A stretch of DNA of 64,000 bases from Nautilus pompilius (taxonomy: Eukaryota > Mollusca > Cephalopoda > Nautilida > Nautilidae). Where the stretch lies: the NCBI GenBank assembly GCA_018389105.1, contig JACATO010000691.1, forward strand, positions 1,418,501 through 1,482,500, read 5' to 3'. Positions 12,101 to 31,000 of this stretch are shown here, piece after piece. The first letter of the stretch is position 1, and the number at the start of each line of letters is the position of its first letter. The position numbers were made by a program, and so were the translations under genes. A model generated the notes under the pieces. It did no database searches, had not been told where the DNA came from, and saw only the letters and a program-made list of their open reading frames with translations.

Positions 12101-15100
12101 AGTGACAGCCATTCACAGGTTATAAACCCTGGAACACCTACTAACTATCCATGTGTACCACTAAAATTTGAGAGAAAATGGAAAGAGGAAGGTTAATGGT
12201 CTGGGTGCATGCACAAAGGTCTAATACTCACAGCATTTGTTGCACGAGTAAGAGACAGGATGGAGTCTGATCCCGTAGGTAGGAGAGAGAGCAAATGGTA
12301 AAGCATGTAGACTAGAGTGAGTTTTTTGTGCGTCAATGCAGAGCTTGTAAGAACCTGTTTATTAATGATTCTAAAATCACTCAACAATAAAAGTTGATTC
12401 TTGTAATGTAATATTTCAGTCAGTCAGCCAGAATACTCCGACGTGTTGCAATGTATATATGGAAAAGGGTGAGCAGATTAGACACAGAGCAAGTAGTAGC
12501 CTGCAGACATCTGCACAACATTCTGGAGATGAATGATGCAAAATACACCTCACCAGAGTTGTTTCCCTTCTTTAAAAAATACTTTAAAAGACTGAAGAGT
12601 AGGCTAAATTGCATTACAATGTGGATCAAATTTGCTACATATTCTTCCAAAAAGCCTAATTTGATCAAATCTCATGTTGACATCTATAGAAATATCCCAT
12701 TACACAACAACACTACTGACTGAAACTTAAAAAAAAAAATTGTTTAATACAGACAGACAGTAACTTTCAGGCTTAGATCAGCCTGCTAAAAAAAATTCTC
12801 ATGAAAACATCTCTTTTCAATTACTTGCTGTTTGGAAATATGGTTTTTTTTTCTGACTATATTCTTCGAATGATAATGGACTCATTTAGTTTGCAAATTA
12901 AGCATTTAAACTGATATCTTTGTTATGCTGTTGTTGATCTGTTAAAATGTGTGTTTACTGACAATTTGTGTGTGTACAGTGACAAGGTTAGGTGGAATAT
13001 ACCTGAAAACAGAATGACTTGGTGGCTTTTCACTATAAAAAACACAGGCATGCGTAATCATGCGTTCTTCACCTACCTGACACAGTTTGTCAATTGTTGT
13101 TCCATATGTATTCTCCTTTTCCAGCAGAGATATTAACATTTGTAGTGGGCTGTCAGACTCCATGAATTCTACTTCTGTCAGACTGTTAGCAGCCTTGTTC
13201 TTTGATTGCAAAACACCATTTTGAACCTAACAAGCAAACGAACAATAGTAAAAAGTGCTACTACAATCCTCTATTATGATAGAATCAATCTATATATTGA
13301 TAAATTATTTATGCCATACAAGAGAGAAAAATGTACATCTTTAAAAGACCACAGCAGCACTGTTTTTGTCAATATCTTGCCAAGCAACATATTCCAGCTG
13401 CTCAAATTTTTCTTAGACATACCTTTTAAGCATTTTTAAAAAAAATACTGTAACTATAACCATCAACAACTTATGACTGTTTAATCTTAAAAAACAAAGC
13501 AAAACATGAGAAATACTCAGATATCATGCAAAACTGAAGTTCTTTTCAACACCCACACATTTTAATAACTGCTAAGCCAAATTTCTTTCCTTCACGTGAA
13601 AAATTCCTCCACATCTTTTGTTTCTAAACAGGTCTGTCACCTTTGTTGGAGCATAATTTAAAAAACCACCAAACATTACTAGTTAAAGGGAAAAGTGTTC
13701 TTTGTATAATAAAACAATAAGATATTTACATAATATTATACAGATTTTAAAAACAACAATTTAAATTTTCTTTCTTGAGAAACCTAGTTGATTCCCTTCC
13801 CAAATCCTTCAACTTAATGTCAGGCAAAAATAGTTTTGCTTTTTTAAATGACAATTTAGTTAAAAAGAATGCCAGTAAATTTAAGCTCTCAATACTTTTC
13901 AAATACTTATGTGTGTCCCTCTCCACTTGAGATATTGCAAATCGTTGTACACTGTATGCCTGGACAAGTGTAGCATCAGCCAAAAGGAGCACAAGAACTG
14001 TCCCCACTTGCTAGCAAATATTAAAACAATTTCCAACACATTTGATAATTTGTGAATAGTAAGTTTACTAGCATAATCTTTAAATGAGAATAAACCATTG
14101 CAAGTTATGGAAGAAACCAAGTTTTATTCTTGACAAAGCTTGGTTATCTGTAGTTTATACCTGTTTAATGATAATAGTACTGTGCAACACAAAAATCTCA
14201 AAAACGTGATAATTTTTGCACTGAGAGTTAACCATACAAGGGGCAGCCATCAATTGTTTTTATACTTTTGCAATTATTCGTGCAACAAACATACTATTCT
14301 AGACATTTTGAAAACATTAAGTTGTCAAAGCATTCCAAACTATGCCCTTGAAATCAAGAGACCTGATAAATCTGCTACTGGCAGAAGTATCCAAACTACA
14401 GAGGCCAAATGCATTATTTCATGTTTTCAAACATAACACATGTGTTCATTGCCCGTGTCAAGCATTTCTAACATAATAAAACCAACGACACATTGCTTTG
14501 ATATTCAGAAAGCATCTGTACTTAGCATCCTTTATGTAGTGATTTCTCAAGGAGATGAAAAAATACAAATGATAAACTAAATGCAACAGTGCATATTAGT
14601 GTAATTAAAAATAATATTTCATGTGATACAATAATTTTTGACAACTAATGTAGTTTTCTTACTCTTAGGTTGGTCAGAGAAATCTATGCTTAAACTTTAC
14701 TTCGATTATCCAAATAAAACTCAATCATCTACAATAAACAGATAAAAAGAGTGATATAAGTTAACCGACAAAACTTTGCACACAATTCAACAAACATAAA
14801 ATTTTAAATGCATAGTTAATTTTAGACAATATCTAGATGGTTTGATGTATTTAGTTACATCATAATGATGGTCCAAGGACCACATGGTTGCTGTCTAACA
14901 TTCATCTGAGACATGTTCTACGGCAATTGTTTAGATTAAATGTTGGACATTTTCCACTTGGACGCAATTTATAACTCTTCTTGCAATGGCAGGCCCTTGT
15001 ATTACACTGGCCAACATTTTTTTTTCCTGCTGACTAAGATCTTACACTTGTTTTTAAACTAATTTTGGAGCACTGATTTCAAAAATAAAATTGGTTTTTG

Positions 15101-18100
15101 CTTATCATGTCAAGTTTTTGTTCCTCGGGATCTTAAAATGGTTAACCTTTTGCTTGGTCAACAAGGATACACAAAATATCCATGTTTCTTGTGCCTGTGG
15201 GATAGTAGAGCTAAGGACAAGCATTGGACTCAGAACAACTGGCCGGTGAGAACACGTTTAAATGTCGGAGAACCAAATATCAAAAACCAACCACTAGTAG
15301 ATCGGGTAAAAATCATCTTTCCTCCTCTCCACATCAAACTGGGTCTAATGAAGCAGTATGTTGAAGCTCTGAATACAGAAGGTGACTGTTTTAAGTACAT
15401 ATGCACAACATTTCCTAGCCTCAGTTATGAAAAAATAAAAGCTGGTGTGTTTGATGGGCAGCAGATCAGAAAACTGATGAGAGATCAACGTTTCACAAGC
15501 TCCATGAATGATATGGAGAAAAGAGCATGGAATTCTTTTGTGGCTGTTGTGAAAAATTTCCTGGGAAACAGAAAAGCTGAAAATTACAAAGATCTTATTC
15601 AAACATTGCTTAAGAATTTTCGTCGTCTGGGATGCAACATGGGGATAAGGGTTCATTTCCTCAACAGTCATCTTGATAGATTTCCTGAAAATCTAGGTGA
15701 CGTAAGTGATGAGCAAGGTGAAAGGTTCCATCAAGATATACAAGCTATGGAGGAGCGATACCACGGAAGGCGGGATACTCACATGATGGCTGACTACTGT
15801 TGGACTATTAAAAGAGACTGTCCAGAAATGAAGCACTTCAGAAAAGCCTACAAACGAAAATTTAATCCATGTAGGAAGAATGTGTCATTTACTGATATCA
15901 GTTAATGTAAGTAAACCCATGTCTGTCATTGTTTTGTTTGTACGGTATTCTAAATGAAATGATAATAAGAATATTCTGGATTAGTTTGTGCCCATTTTTG
16001 ACTAAAATTCATTCAATTCTAGCATCGATTTATATTTATATATTTCAATATTTTGACCTGATATGTCATAGTTAATCAATCTCAAAATTGATTCATGGTA
16101 TTGTTTGTTGGAATGGTATTCTAAATAAAATGATAAGAACAGGATTGAGTTGATTGTGGAAATCATTGTAATCAGGTACTTTTTTATGGCAATTGATCGA
16201 AAATGGAGATATGCTGTAGAGCAAAAACTTGACATGATGGGCAAAAACCAATGTGATATTTGAGTTCAGTGCTCCCAAATTAGTCAGAAACAAGTCAGCA
16301 AAAATTGTGTCGACCAGTGTTATTGTTCATAAGGTGAGACTTTGTACAATCTGTGTATGACAACAGGTAGGCACTAACCTGTAATAGTTCCATCAAAAAA
16401 AAAGAATCAGTTACTTGCAGTCACATGACTCAACCAAAATCCAGAGCAAATGAATACTAGCTGATTCCAATCTCAACCTACAGAATGCTGATGTTGAGAG
16501 AGAGAGCAAGAGCGGACATCTAGTATGAAAAGTAGCAGTGTAGCTGATTTGATAGTCTGATTAGACATATTGGCTTCACAAACCAGCTGCAATTTTTTTC
16601 TGGATATAATGTGCCATGATAGTGCAGCTACATTCAGCCAGACAAGTGAGGTAACAGTCAGTACTGCAACAGAATTGTATCTGTGCCTACTTCCAGTCCC
16701 TATTCTAGCTATGGTTAGATATCACCAGTCATTGGCAAATGATCACTGAAGTGTCACATTCTAAATATTTGATAACTTCATTATGCGAACATGATGACAG
16801 GTTTGTCGTTATGTCATACACCAATGTCTACAAGAGAGCCAACCCCGGTGAAGGAGCATAGTGCTGTGGCTGCCCACTAGAAAGCATTGGCAATTCTGCA
16901 CCCCAAGTCGTCCAGCACTTCCAACCTCAGCACAAAAAGCCTTACTAGAATTCATCATTTTATTTGGAGGAAAAAACCTATGCAGCTGGCTGATGAAGAG
17001 TGGGAAAGATCATGTTAGGGATCTTGTGAGAATTGAGCTCTCAGGCCCTTGATTGTAGCAGTCCAGTAGTCCACCACACAACCCTGACAGGTTTTACACC
17101 CAGTTATAGAAATCTGGAATCAACTAACAGTGATACAACTTTTGTGAATACACCTAACCCAGAGACAGAAAATTCCTTGCAACGCTTGAAGCTACTGTCA
17201 CATGAATTAGGCCCTTGGGTTGACAAAGCCGAAGGATCACACAACAAACAATGGCCAAGGTTTCTGTAAATATTTGTACAAAACATCCACGTGTATCTGA
17301 GTGAAGAGAAAAAAATTGCTGTTATGCCATAATTAGGAAAGATAGACAATTCACTACTAGTCTGTGAAACACTGGAGATTGTTGTTGGTGAGTTTAGTGT
17401 GTCATCCTGATACTCACAGATTTAGCTGCTGCATTCTCTTCCTCAGAGCACCAGATTCCCAGGCTATCGACATCTCTGATGTAGGCATGGTAATGGCCGC
17501 CATGGGCACCTCCACGGTGAATGACCACCGAAAACAGCTCATACAAGAGCTCATCACTTCCATCGGACTGTGGAGAAAGCACCAGCAAACAAGTGAGCCT
17601 GCCTGTCATATCTCAGCTAGAGTTCTAATCAACTCCAAGCCATTGCAATTATTCACATTTTATCATGAAAATAAGGAAAGTAGCATAATTGATCAGAACA
17701 AATACACTTAGTTGTTAGGCAAACATGAGGGGACAATCACCTGGTGGTGTGCATTATTTTCTTTTTAAAAATGCAACAATTTACAAAAAGTCTTTTTGCC
17801 AAAAAAAAAACAACAAAGACCAAAGCTTAATTTCTGAAGAGACTAGTGATTTTAAGCAATATTAAATATAGTGGAAATAGCTACCAGAAAATATGGTACA
17901 GTTGCAGTTAATTCTTCACTAAAGAAAATTTTAAATCTTGTATTTATCAACCCTAATTATATGAGAGGGTTGCACTACTGAAAATCATCGTATATATAAA
18001 ATCTGCATAAAACAGTAACATGCAATAATAGGGGTTGCATCAGTTTTTCCTGCATCACACGCTCAGTTGCCAGACATCTGGGCTGGAGTAACAGCCAGTA

Positions 18101-22059: not shown

Positions 22060-25000
22060 TATATTATGTAGTAGATGCACATTTCAAGTTCATTTGCCAA
22101 CTCATTGTTTGATACTGGCACAATACGCATGTTTGGCTTTGCTCAGTAGTTTAGTTGAAAATTCTGCATGATGTCAAACCAATCCTCTAGAAGTCATATG
22201 CACCTTCTGCACCAAGAGTTTCAGTTGACAAGGTCAGTCGAAAAGCTGTCTCATTTTTTCGCACTAAACTGAATACACATTCACTATCAGCATTGGAATG
22301 GGGCATTACACACAAGCCCTTCATGTTCATGACATGGGGTCAGGGTTGGATAGCTTAAGTGCCCATCTGCAGATTTCAGATGAAAGATCATGTTTCATTG
22401 TTTGTCAACCTTAATTTCTGCTAGAATCTCCTCTGGTAATTGGTCAATTCTAAACTTCAAAAATTCATTCTCAAGGTCATTGAGATCACAATTCTCTGGA
22501 AGCAGTACAGGAAACTTGTTGATAAAGAACTTCAACATTCCAAATTTGTGCCTGGACTTTTGTAGAACATCTAAAAACTCTTGCATTATCCAGAAAATCA
22601 TCCAACAATGGGAATTTAACAAGTATGTAATTGGTGGCCAATGAATAGAATTTACGGACATCAGCAACAAATATGTCCTCTTTTCCCTGCTGTTGCAAGT
22701 ATTTTCTGGTTTCAGAACCAATAGCCAACTCTTTTCTGTTAAGCTGCAGATCCCTTGAAGAGTACTTGAGCTGGAAGATATTTTCAGCAGATGAAATTAC
22801 ACCTGGCTTTGCAAACCTTACCAGCAAGTCTATGAGGACTTCTGTCAAGCGTTGAGACAGTCTGTGGATCCGAGGTGCCTTTTGTTGAAGCAGCAGGTTT
22901 GCATTGACAAATACTGGAAGATTATCTACCAGAAACAGGCAATATAACTTGCTAGCACTGTCCTTGAAAAAAGTGTTGATGTTCCTGAGTCTATCATATT
23001 TGGTTTGTTGGATGTGTCTAGGCTTGATGGCACTCATTTCAATTTCAAAGAATGCCTGTAGAGCTGTCCATTGCTCCAAAAGTCGACAAATGCAGTCCAG
23101 CAAGGAAAACCACCATGTGGTTCCATATTTCAAAATCTTGTGAATTTTTGTTCCTGTCTCCTCTTTAAATTTTTTAAATTCCTTTTTCCTCTTGCTACTT
23201 TTTTCCAAATAGAAGTATATATCAATTAAAGTCTGGGGTATATCCAAACACAGCTCCTTTGTGGCCACTTTGGCAGCTGAATGCAACAGATGGCATGGAC
23301 AGCTAATTAACTGGGTGGCATAATTTTTTTCGCAAACATGAGCAACACCACCATTATGGCAGCTGGTCATAACTGCTGCATTATCACAACCAAAAGCTAG
23401 TCAATTTCTCCATGAAATGTTCCTTTTCAAAAGCTCCTGATCAAGGAGATTGAAAATGTTTACCCCAGTTGATGAGTCAAGACATGGCTTCAATGATAAA
23501 AAATCTGTAACAACATGTCCAATCTCTTCATCAAAATATCTGACAACAATTGGATACAACTGATTCTCTTATTTCTTCCTGGTCTTTGGCTAATCATTTT
23601 ACCATTTCAGGTGCTTTAAATCTACCACAAGAGAATTTCTGTGCTATTTTTGAATCAGGGAACATTTCTTAAAGAGTGCACCAGCATGATCTAAAACGGA
23701 CAAAGGCAAGAAGTGTTTGGTTTTTATTTAAAGAAGAGACTCTGCAGTGACTTCCATAACATGCATCTCTGTAATCACTGCTGTGTTTTTGCACAAATGA
23801 TGCCCAACTTGCTGCATCTAGTTCTAGTTCTACATTAGATTTCTAGTGTTCTTTTATGGTGTTTCTTTAGATTACAAAGCAGACTGACAGAGCACAAAGT
23901 ATGGCATACAGCATGTCATGCTGTCGACACGGAAAAGCACTGAAGTGTCTGATGCAAAATTCTGTTATTAGTGTGTCTAAATTTCTGATTGTCTGCTTGT
24001 TTCTTTTTTTGTTTTTGTGACGCATGACCGATCGTGAGTCGTCGTTAAACTGATTCACCAGTGTCCGCCTGATAATATCTCTACCAGAAGCCAAATTTAT
24101 ATATATACCATCAGCCTAATTTATTTTTTCTAATTTCCATTTTGTTTTCATCCACACATACCACACACGAATGAACCGCTCTTATTTCAAACTATGAAGA
24201 TGAAGGCATTGTGTGAATCATGTCAAATTTGATTGTGATAGAAACAAACTACTGTCCTTCCCACTCTGCCCGAGTCCACCCGCCGGGTACAGGCTCGCTC
24301 GTATTTATGAGATTGCTAGCCAATCGGCACACTGCCCATTACTAGTGTCAATCAAAAAATGCGAATGAGCCAGCCAATGGATTTAAAGCAGCCTGGCAGG
24401 AAGAAGACAGATGCCAGTGTTGTGGTTAAATTTTAAATACAAAAAAATCCCAACGGAAAACTACAGTGCCTTTTGTACAACGAGGTAAGTTTTTGGGGAA
24501 CTGGGAGCTTAGCTTCCCCAATATTACTTTCATCATAGCGCTATCTAATGAGAAGTGATCTTTTATTTCAGAAGAAATGACATAAAGACTATATCTGAAA
24601 TTCATTCCACACTGCCGAAAATGGGCTGGGGGGGAAGGTGCAACCGATTTTCCATAATCGCACCACTGCATCAGGAATTTCAGAAACAAGAAAGAAAATC
24701 AGGAATAATTACGGAAAATCCGTAAAGGTAGGAACCTCTGAGTAACCAAGTCAGCAGAGATTTTTTTAAAACTGTAATCATAAAGATTCAAGCTGAACCC
24801 TTTTTCACCAGTGGCATGTTGTCGTCCTCTTCATGAATTCTGAGAGGTTCCACTACCGACAACTGCATTCTCACATCCCACAATTGGCTTCCTGCAGACA
24901 AGATCTACTACACTTTCAGACAGACCAAGATGATAAACACACACGCTCGCACAGAGAGAATGACTGACAAAAGAGAGGGCAGACTGACCAGGGGAAAAAT

Positions 25001-28000
25001 CATACAAATTAACATTCTGATGGCTCAGTAAATTGCAATAACAATTTTAATATTTCAAGAAACCTTGGGAAAAAATTAATTTGGCACAGATCTACTTACC
25101 TTCAATCTTTCCATTTTCCTAAAATTGTAGCTGAACCTGAGCAAAGAGAAGCTGAGAATAGGTGGAAGTGTTCTTAACTTGGATCCCTGAAACAAATTAA
25201 TTTATGGTCAAGAGGATTCTTTACTTTTTCCTTTCTTTAAATGACATTTTAAAATAGAAGAGAGGGGGTGCTTTCAGCTTTACCTTGTTAGCGCACACCA
25301 ATTTCTGGCAGCATTCACACCGGTATTTGTTGTTACCATCCATTATTTCAAGCTCACAATATGATTTGTGGAGTCCAGCTTCCAAACTGTTAGAGGTGAC
25401 GGCCAGCGTCAAATCAAGGAAGTCCTCCTAAACACACAGGGCATAGGTTTCATTGTTCTAGGTACTAACAAAAATGGGAGGGTCCATAATGAAACCCACC
25501 CCCAATTTTAAAAGGTTTTCAAATCTCAACAAAGATTACACTGGTCAACAAATTTTTATTTTTTTTCTTTGGCAGACCATCTAGGAGTGTTTTCTGGGGT
25601 TTTGAAGGTCGCTGATTACGAATATAACATTGGTTTTGTCTGATTGGCTCTAGTTTAGAAGATATTGATAGCCTCAAATAAGCCTAAACTGCTAAAATTC
25701 TCCCTGAAATACTTCAATATAGAAGCAGTAAATAATAATTTTCTGATATTATTGAATCATTATAATGATTATAATCATTATAATGATTCAATAATATCAG
25801 AAAAATACATAATAATTATTATGTATGTAGTGTTTTTAAAACAGTATTTAAGAATTTTCTTTTTAATTCTTTTCCTTTTTTATTCCAGAGTTGAAAATGA
25901 GTTCTTCTAAAAGACGTTGTAGATATGAACCGGATGTCTTTTGTTACATCTGTGGACAGTATATGATGGCACAACAAAAGAGGAATATTACAGACTTTGT
26001 CAAGAGGGCGTACAAAGCATACTTCGATATGAAACTAGGTGACCAAGATAAGTCTTGGGCCCCACATATGGTGTGCAAAACCTGTGTAGAAAGTCTCCGC
26101 GGTTGGACCAATGGTAAGCTGAAGTTGAAGTTTGCTGTACCAATGGTGTGGAGAGAGCCCAAGAATCATTTTGATGACTGCTACTTCTGTATCAATGACA
26201 TGACGGGGTTTAACAAGCACAAGAAAGCAAATTGGCAGTATCCGAGCCTGGATTCTGCTATCCGTCCTGTTGCGCACTCTGAGGATCTACCTGTGCCTGT
26301 TTTCACCAGTCTGCCTGAAATCGATGAAAACCGAAGAGAGATTCCAGCTGATCTTTCAATATCAAGTGGTGATAGCTGTAGTGACTATGAAGAACCCTCA
26401 AATGGCCCTCAGCTTTTCAATCAATCTGAACTTAATGACCTAGTGCGAGACCTTTGTTTGTCGAAGGAGCAGTCTGAAGTTCTTGCATCCAACTCCAAGA
26501 GAAAAAACATTCTTGATTCTGGCACAAAAAGTAACATACTATAGGACAAGGGAAGGCAGCTTGCTTCGTTCTTTTCTAAAGAAGATGACCTGATCTTTTG
26601 TAATGACGTTTCTGCACTTCTTAACTGCATGGGGATCTCGTCATATGACCCAGCAGATTGGCGTCTCTTTATAGATAGCTCGAAAGCAAGTCTAAAAGTT
26701 GTACTTTTGCATAATGGCAATAAGTTTGCTCCTGTACCACTTGGCCATTCTACCAAGATGAAAGAAGAGTATGATGGTATCCAATTTGTTCTTGAAAAGC
26801 TAAATTACAACACTCATAAATGGCTGATTTGTGTGGACTTGAAAATGGTGAATTTTCTGCTTGGTCAGCAAAGTGGGTACACAAAGTATCCCTGCTTTCT
26901 TTGTTTGTGGGATAGCAGAGCAAGAATCCAGCACTGGAGAAGGGAGAACTGGCCAGAACGAGAAAGTCTCGAAGTCGGCACAGCCAACGTCATCAATGAG
27001 CCTTTGGTACCCAGGGATAGAATCATCTTCCCTCCATTGCATAAAAACTAGGGCTCATGAAGCAGTTTGTTAAGGCGTTGAACAAAGATGGGGATTGCTT
27101 CAAGTACATATGCAGGCAATTTCCAGGTCTTTCCATCGAAAAAGCTAAAGGTGGCATCTTCGATGGACCTCAGATTCGAACGCTCATGAGGGATTCTGAC
27201 TTCACTAATCATATGAACATGGTTGAGTTAAATGCTTGGGTGTCCTTCACAGATGTAGTGACAAACTTTTTGGGAAATCACAAAGCTGACAATTACAAGC
27301 AATTGGTCCGTAAGATGCTTACTGCATACGAAAAACTAGGGGCAAATGTGAGCATCAAAGTTCATTTCTTGTTTAGCCACCTCGACAGATTTCCTGGTAA
27401 TCTTGGTGATTACAGTGAGGAGCAAGGAGAGAGATTCCATCAAGACATCAAAACAATGGAAGAGAGGTATCAAGGCAAATGGGATGAGCACATGATGGCA
27501 GACTACTGCTGGAACCTTTTGAGAGACTGCCCGAAAGTTGCTCACAAGCGAAAATCGTATAAACGTCAATTTCACTTTTGTGAATAAAATATTGTTTTGT
27601 GTGTTCATTGTAACTAAGAATCTAGTGTATAATAATGCTTTGCATTAATTTATGATATATAACTGATTATGTAAATGTTTTTTTCCCTTGGAGAATTAAA
27701 ATTCAGCAAATTTTTAGCAAATTTTTTGTATATTCTCGAAATATATGAAAAGTGTTCATTTATTAATAAATGAAATGATGTTATATCTAACTTAACTTGT
27801 TAGATTGAGATTTTACACTGTCTTTGTGGTTTTGGATTATCATAAAAATCAATATCTGACATTTTTGCACTATTTAGCCGTTTTTTGTACGTTTAGTTAT
27901 GGTCGCGAATGGGTGATTTCAGACGAACGACCCCCCTGTGATATCTCCAAAACTAGAGCCAACTTGAAAAAAAACAAATGTCAGATTCGGATTCAGCGCC

Positions 28001-31000
28001 CTTGAAAACCCCAGAAACCAGTCTCACTTTTCCTGCAAAAAATATTGTGTTGACCAGTGTTAATAATTATTATTGACAAAGTTAAGTAAAAATACAGAAA
28101 AAAAAAACCATCCATAAACGCCATCATTCCAACATTTTCATTTAATATTTTTGGTTAAATTGCAACATTTTTCTAAGGTTTTTAAACCCTCCTTTAAAAA
28201 AGTTGCTATTGAGTAATCTAAAGATGTTAAGAAAAGATGTTTTACTTGATTGACCTTTTCAGCGCATCTAATTTTGACAAAAGATGTCGTCTGCCTGTAG
28301 TTCAGCAGATGGGAAAAATACATAATCACAATTGTCAAGTTGCACACATTATCACAAATCAACAGTCAACAAATTAGCTTCCCGCTGATAGCTTCAACCA
28401 TAAGAATTTGTTGATTGCATTGTACCCCATTTGCATCAAAATCAGTCAGCTGTTCTGACACATTTTACCTACGACTCAGAACTCAAAACATGCAATGTCT
28501 AGAGCAAGTGAATATCTAAATAACTGATATTTGGTCAGTTTGATTCATAACAAAAGCTGCCTCAAATTTACTGATGTCATTATACAATTTTAGAATAAAA
28601 CAAGTGAATAATATCCAAAAAATAAGCTGTTTAATAAGTTCATATGAAAGTTGATAACTTACCACTCTTTCACTTATTTTTCCACATTCCGAGCAAATAA
28701 TCTGAATACAAGATAAATTAACAAACAATTATAATAATTAATGCACAGCAATAAATTATAAATTTTTTCTTAAACATCAGAAAACATTATGCCAATGATA
28801 AGATAACACTGCTATAAGCAGTGAAAACCAGTGGTTTAAAATAAACTCAGATTTAATATCTTCATAAGAACAAATCAAACTGAACTGAGTTGGATAATTA
28901 CAAAAGACCATCTGTATCTGCCAAAAATGTCAGAGATGCCCAATGAGATAAACATCTGGGGAGACAGTTGGTCATGCCTTTTGACATTGTTGCCCCCTAA
29001 GAAACAGCAACAAGCCAAGCTCAGTGTCCTATTGACATTATCCTGGAAAACAAAACCTGCTTCCAGAACTATTAGTCTCAAAATCTGATCCATTTACCTC
29101 GGACTAGTCGGGCATACTGAAGCAGTAGAACAGTTCTCTCTCTGATGCAGTTATGCATGCACATTAACTGCCATCAGACAAGTCAAAATTAAACCAACTC
29201 TCTTAAAAAAACATTGCCAACCTTGAGTCCCTTGTCTAATGATAATGGTACCTTGTCCAAAAAATGATGGCAGCTCAAAGAAAAACCAACAAGTAAACAT
29301 TTGACAAAATTCTACAAGCCGAATTCAGATTCTCGTGGTGTGTTTGAACATCTGAATGTGCGCACACCAGCAAGTATTCATGGATTTGGGGAGCAAAACC
29401 ATTGCTCTGATCATCAAGAGCAACTGCACAATACAGATGACCTCTGCTGGACCTGTTGCTAATGTCACCTGCCTAGAGATGGTTATCAGTTGACTATTAA
29501 CTAACTATGAAATATTGAAACTTGGAGCAATATTGATCTGCCTAGTGTCTTTTTGCAACTGACTACTGCAAGGACCCCCTGGTTGCATGATGAATGCTGC
29601 CGGCTACATCATAACCACAAGCAAGCAAATATGTACTTTAAAATTCTCATATGGAAGGCTGACTTACAGATTTGAAATCTAATTTAGGAAACATTAAAAA
29701 AAAAAAAAAACATACTGACAGCATGTTTTTGCACATGATAGCACATGACCCCACAATCTAAAATAATATTATATATTTATAGTCAGTATGCACCTGAAAT
29801 TGTTTGAGCACATCTCCGATAATAAACCAATCTTAGGATAAGGAAAAAACAACATACCTGATTGACAACTGTTCCACGATACAGCGTCTGAATGAGGTCC
29901 TCACCAGAGGTCCCCACTAATGACTCCTCCACTGCACTAAACAGAATCCTACTAAGTTCTTGAACATCATGTTGTTGTTGCAGAGCCTGAAAAGTGGAAT
30001 GATGCATTATAAGCAGCAGAATGATGTCATGTAGCTAGAAAACTACTGATAGTCCTTGATGACTCGAGCCAAATCTGCTATGAAGCAGATGGTTTTAAAG
30101 CCACTTCATTATTACCTACCTCATTGTTGGTCCAGCCAAAACTCTCAGTAAGTTCAGCTGTGGATAGGCATTCCCTCTTACATAGCAACAGTTGAGCAAA
30201 AAGATGTTGGAGATGAAGGGGAATAACTCTCACCTGTTAAAGTAAACAGAGCTGAATTAAAAACTATTTACTTCCTTTTTTAAACGTTGTCCCTCACTAA
30301 CCAGGCAGTCACTTTCTCATTGGTACAAAAATCCAGGTCATTGTGGAAAAATAGATTTCGTTCTTATTTTTTGCTTGATAATTTTCGATGGCGGAGAGAA
30401 GCCGTTTGCCGCCCTCTATTTTATTCTTGTTGCATCATGTGGGAAATTATTGAAAAATCTCTTCCGCAACTTTGTAGGTGGAAACTCTAGTGAAGCATCA
30501 ATAATGTCTAGTAAAACTAAAGTACCACCTCGAATTACTACACTATTAGTTCTGTGCCGTGGCAGCACTGGTGACATTCAAGGAAGAGTCATATGAGCAG
30601 CTTTCCCACTGATGATAAAGTTAAAATTTTTATCAGTTCACTGAAGCAGAAGCATGGGAGAAGGTCAGAATTGATCACGTGTGCTGCCTGCCTCCCATGT
30701 TGTATTTCCTCAGGACTATATCTGCATACTTTAGTATACATTTGTACTGTGTACTCCTGAAAACTCAAATGTCTTTAACCGTTTCATTTTTTTCAATTTT
30801 CATTCCAAAAGACATTTTGAAATCTGTGGTGTAATACATTCAAATATCACTGTTTCAGATGCTTCTGCAATGACGACCTAGAGAATGTCAACAACCCCAT
30901 ATTACAGAGTGACTACCTGGCTCGTCAGAGGCATGTTAAATAGACACTGTAAGTAACAAAGTGGTTTCAGCCTTTTCCATTAAATCCCAGCATCTTCCTA

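Follow-up and report, generated by a model that had tools for sequence, protein, structure and literature searches.

The stretch of DNA described here is a 64-kb window (36% G+C) of the Nautilus pompilius genome (contig JACATO010000691.1, positions 1,418,501 to 1,482,500), in which two loci, referred to as element 1 (2521 bp) and element 2 (1315 bp), are each bordered by CACTGG on the left and CCAGTG on the right, with TTA on both flanks (Table 1). These ends and flanks are exactly those that the original prediction, made from the sequence alone, had claimed for the two loci. Both elements very probably belong to Chapaev3, a group of cut-and-paste DNA transposons among the CMC and Transib-RAG1 kin. 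The predicted transposon nature, TTA duplication and CMC-like affinity are all borne out by the ends, the 3-bp duplication, the protein motifs and the predicted fold.

The target-site duplication is exactly 3 bp long in both copies, this being the only length between 2 and 8 bp at which the flanks matched. On the + strand, TTACACTGG was observed twice (0.27 expected under a dinucleotide model) and CCAGTGTTA also twice (0.29 expected), in all cases at element ends, and the four nine-base words that join end and flank in the two elements are the sole examples within the window. In local alignments of left end to inverted right end, element 1 scores 87 and element 2 scores 94, compared with maxima of 25 and 39, respectively, in 300 shuffles. 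The inverted similarity had been put at 110-130 bp, which agrees with element 1 (about 127/119 bp) and is somewhat generous for element 2, because the alignment there is a 78-bp block of 84.6% identity plus the outermost bases. Candidate mini-copies within the window were rejected because the blastn matches of the termini outside both elements are short (19-34 bp) and rich in A+T (71-95%), and none has TTACACTGG or CCAGTGTTA.

Element 1 encodes a protein that begins at ATG 25897, and its frames span the whole transposase without an intron, apart from two reading-frame breaks that leave the copy broken. The pieces are 94% and 97% identical to an intact relative, P0006. Directly before the start codon, at 25850-25899, the sequence is rich in pyrimidines over a long run up to TTCCAG and looks by eye like a splice acceptor, which makes a 5' exon possible. 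The 66-bp palindrome is followed by another, small palindromic stretch. In element 2 the coding remainder sits close behind the left end, the zinc domain and the first catalytic Asp being missing, and the element is a deletion derivative that would have been mobile only with transposase from another copy. Judged by sequence comparison, the two elements are of different families, because their coding parts are 66% identical as DNA and their ends have little in common outside the tips and one short subterminal stretch. Two 43-nt direct repeats, 81% alike and with starts 171 bases apart, lie in the 3' part of element 2 (15933-16146).

Table 1. Positions of the two elements and their parts within the 64-kb window
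Feature	Positions	Strand	Remarks
TTA, 5' target-site duplication of element 2	15002..15004		
Element 2, 1315-bp internally deleted Chapaev3-type element (probable)	15005..16319	+	
C-terminal remainder of element 2 transposase	15129..15905	+	matches P0006 residues 319-565 at 67%
TTA, 3' target-site duplication of element 2	16320..16322		
TTA, 5' target-site duplication of element 1	25536..25538		
Element 1, 2521-bp Chapaev3-type transposon (probable), CACTGG..CCAGTG	25539..28059	+	
Left terminal inverted repeat, element 1	25539..25665	+	local alignment to inverted right end
66-bp perfect palindrome, element 1	25739..25804		between left end and reading frame
Transposase reading frame, element 1	25897..27587	+	broken: stop at 26542, frame change near 27045
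N-terminal zinc domain, element 1	25918..26300	+	ZAD-like (two CxxC pairs), then further CxxC
Right terminal inverted repeat, element 1	27941..28059	-	
TTA, 3' target-site duplication of element 1	28060..28062		

About 5.8 billion proteins were searched, and 2543 relatives were found at E<=0.001, the best 120 of which were listed. The closest of the matches listed is P0006, an intact protein of 566 aa that is 94% identical to the query, and the relatives have the whole transposase as one predicted protein. Species-named members among the best 120 are labelled ‘uncharacterized’, ‘hypothetical’ or ‘unnamed’; their sources are lizard, frog, Hydra, beetles, locust and leech. None of the 120 has a precomputed Pfam domain, and in Pfam scans no family reached its cut-off in the rows with scores shown. 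In an alignment of 107 of the 120 (A1; the 13 shorter matches were left out), D265, D319, E514, C338, C341 and H387 are present in all sequences, and L386, H495 and H500 in 106. Two further alignments comprise 49 of these 107 sequences (A2) and the window piece with 58 matches, 10 of them outside A1 (A3), and N-terminal slices were taken from 23 of the 49 A2 rows after removal of gapped and >72% identical rows. Of the motifs named in the original prediction (FIDSSK, CVDLK, CFLC and EEQGERFH), all are found in element 1, while element 2 lacks the FIDSSK part, has DLK only, keeps CFLC and reads DEQGERFH. The ‘uncharacterized protein’ annotations in several animals would also suit a multigene family of the host, or a domesticated gene, lying by chance between similar sequences, but such an origin is scarcely credible given that the ends of the two loci match, that both duplications are exact, that one locus has decayed and the other is internally deleted, and that the catalytic residues of the protein are invariant.

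Stretches matching one of two peptide patterns were also collected from viral contigs (28) and from bacterial or archaeal genomes (81), and in neither set was any confirmed as a relative. PMC4079192, in the part consulted, names a bracovirus copy of the Chapaev3 element Garfield, which supplied no reference protein because no predicted viral structure matched at E<=0.001.

The core of the transposase is well modelled and is predicted to form an RNase H fold with a zinc-binding insert like that of RAG1, including C(2)C and H(4)H motifs. Together with the invariant residues, this fold supports the DDE catalytic core that had been proposed for the protein. The predicted core, the DDE residues and the order of the C(2)C and H(4)H motifs are shared with Transib and RAG1, and the D-to-C spacing is 19 residues both here and in RAG1. 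In contrast, the duplication is 3 bp in both copies, whereas that of Transib is 5 bp. No second frame of at least 150 aa that might represent a RAG2-like gene was found in the element. PIF/Harbinger elements, a comparison also suggested by the original prediction, likewise make 3-bp duplications and resemble the elements here in the TTA duplication only; that the elements belong there is almost certainly wrong, since the predicted fold is RAG1-like and includes C(2)C and H(4)H, the ends are CAC..GTG, and a Harbinger-type DDE family is neither one of the 9 Pfam families that 59 sequences hit at E<=0.1 nor one of the 25 listed, out of at least that many, for a set of 49 sequences at E<=1.

In the mechanism that we propose for the Chapaev3-type elements, a single transposase of about 560 residues would bind the inverted ends of about 120 bp through its N-terminal zinc domain and a helical part, and would cut at the CACTGG tips with a RAG1-like two-metal DDE core, braced by a C(2)C/H(4)H site that presumably binds zinc. 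Cutting may involve a RAG-like hairpin step. The target would be TTA, to which the ends would be joined with a stagger of 3 bases, and repair would leave the TTA duplication.

CACTA/EnSpm elements proper have CACTA ends, unlike the CACTGG ends of both copies, and the motifs and protein length, compared by description, fit Chapaev3. Common to CACTA/EnSpm and Mirage within CMC and to the elements described here are CAC..GTG-type ends, short duplications, and C(2)C and H(3-4)H motifs (PMC12730594, in the part consulted); on the basis of C(2)C and H(3-4)H, the same excerpt unites EnSpm, Mirage, Chapaev and Transib as a single CMCT clade, and an excerpt of PMC4411706 places Chapaev and Chapaev3 with RAG1 in the Transib superfamily. 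For Chapaev3, the consulted part of PMC4079192 gives TWA target duplications set between A (5') and T (3'), with T after the 3' TWA in every site it examined, CAC..GTG ends, mostly single exons, the motifs C(2)C, LH and H(4)H, and transposases such as those of 556 aa (Garfield_BM) and 78+484 aa (Merrow_PM). By these published features, Garfield, Merrow and Conan resemble the elements in the window in duplication, ends, similar protein length, motifs and animal hosts: TTA and CAC..GTG are found in both copies, the DDE residues with C(2)C, LH and H(4)H are found across the 107 relatives of A1, and P0006 (566 aa) is close to the mostly single-exon transposases of about 556-562 aa. Garfield and Merrow differ in having two coding exons, whereas the relatives here are single predicted proteins. 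The elements were filed as Chapaev3 because all tested published features fit but the 3' base of element 1.

Several points weigh against this assignment. The base 5' of TTA is A in both copies, but the 3' base is T in one only, element 1 having A where published Chapaev3 sites have T, so the A..T rule fits one of two copies. The duplication evidence comes from these two copies, both within the window. Structural similarity to RAG1 and Transib is modest by Foldseek, with TM-scores of 0.31-0.46 by query length and an rmsd of 7-12 A over whole alignments, a profile search of PDB sequences detected no similarity to either protein, and the Pfam RAG1 importin-binding family appears in one of 49 members at E 0.16, which is no sequence-level match. 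Finally, the elements are placed in Chapaev3 by diagnostic features rather than by a tree or by comparison with a named Chapaev3 protein sequence. This last point and the 3' flank of element 1 could also be taken to favour a superfamily of the CMC/Transib clade apart from Chapaev3 with ends of the same type; we consider this improbable, as duplication, ends, motif set, length and single-frame layout all coincide with published Chapaev3. The separate superfamily offered as an alternative by the original prediction is not needed, because Chapaev3, an already described kind, combines these ends, duplications, lengths and motifs (PMC4079192, in the part consulted).

The N-terminal domain of the transposase relatives has conserved CxxC pairs, and its best PDB fold matches (25897-26400 of element 1 was submitted to fold prediction) are ZADs, the zf-AD domains of insect zinc-finger transcription factors. 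Both are N-terminal domains with two CxxC pairs, but here they are followed by a further CxxC and the transposase, not by C2H2 fingers. Pfam zf-AD scores in the rows shown are 12.9-17.5 bits, below the cut-off of 28, with a best E of 3.5e-5 for any member and of 1.9e-4 among the 23 N-terminal slices. The ZAD reading is weakened by Zn_ribbon_12, found in 11 of the 23 slices, because its best E (2.9e-4) is close to the latter value. A search of PDB sequences with the slice profile gave no ZAD chains and chance-level matches only, as did those with P0003 and with the full alignment in yielding nothing above chance. Weak Pfam rows (Zn_ribbon_12, FYVE, zf-C17orf113, Glyco_hydro_18, Styelin, SQS_PSY, RT_RNaseH, DDE_Tnp_1_4 and others) were set aside as sporadic or as a single CxxC knuckle.

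An N-terminal ‘Chapa’ zinc finger common to Chapaev/Chapaev3 and RAG1 is described in the consulted part of PMC4411706, the only paper found for ‘Chapa domain’ in the literature search. It is conceivable, though rather doubtful, that the Chapa domain of Chapaev3 contains a ZAD fold; the insect ZAD and the N-terminal region of RAG1 would in that case both descend from this transposon lineage, and ZAD-type dimerisation would serve transposase assembly. No paper linking ZAD to Chapaev3 or RAG1 was found among the matches listed: in the excerpts seen of PMC4887553 and PMC11835853, two of the seven listed papers that contain both ‘zad’ and ‘rag1’, ‘zad’ is a piece of personal names, and in that of PMC9810180 ‘transposase’ means THAP.

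Elsewhere in the window, a minus-strand frame at 18260-18802 matches Pfam Transposase_1 (mariner type) over its cut-off (E 7.1e-9), and a 304-aa frame at 22486-23400, also on the minus strand, has no Pfam match at E<=0.01; by eye, the latter looks similar to hAT/ZNF862-like proteins.

A large protein family with 2543 relatives is thus identified as a Chapaev3-type transposase, and many of the ‘uncharacterized’ gene predictions in this family are therefore probably transposon copies. RAG1 is the recombinase that assembles antibody genes, and the predicted RAG1-like core offers a sequence-rich and compact RAG1/Transib-type enzyme for the study of recombinase evolution. The ZAD link, if true, would connect transposons with a major domain of insect transcription factors.
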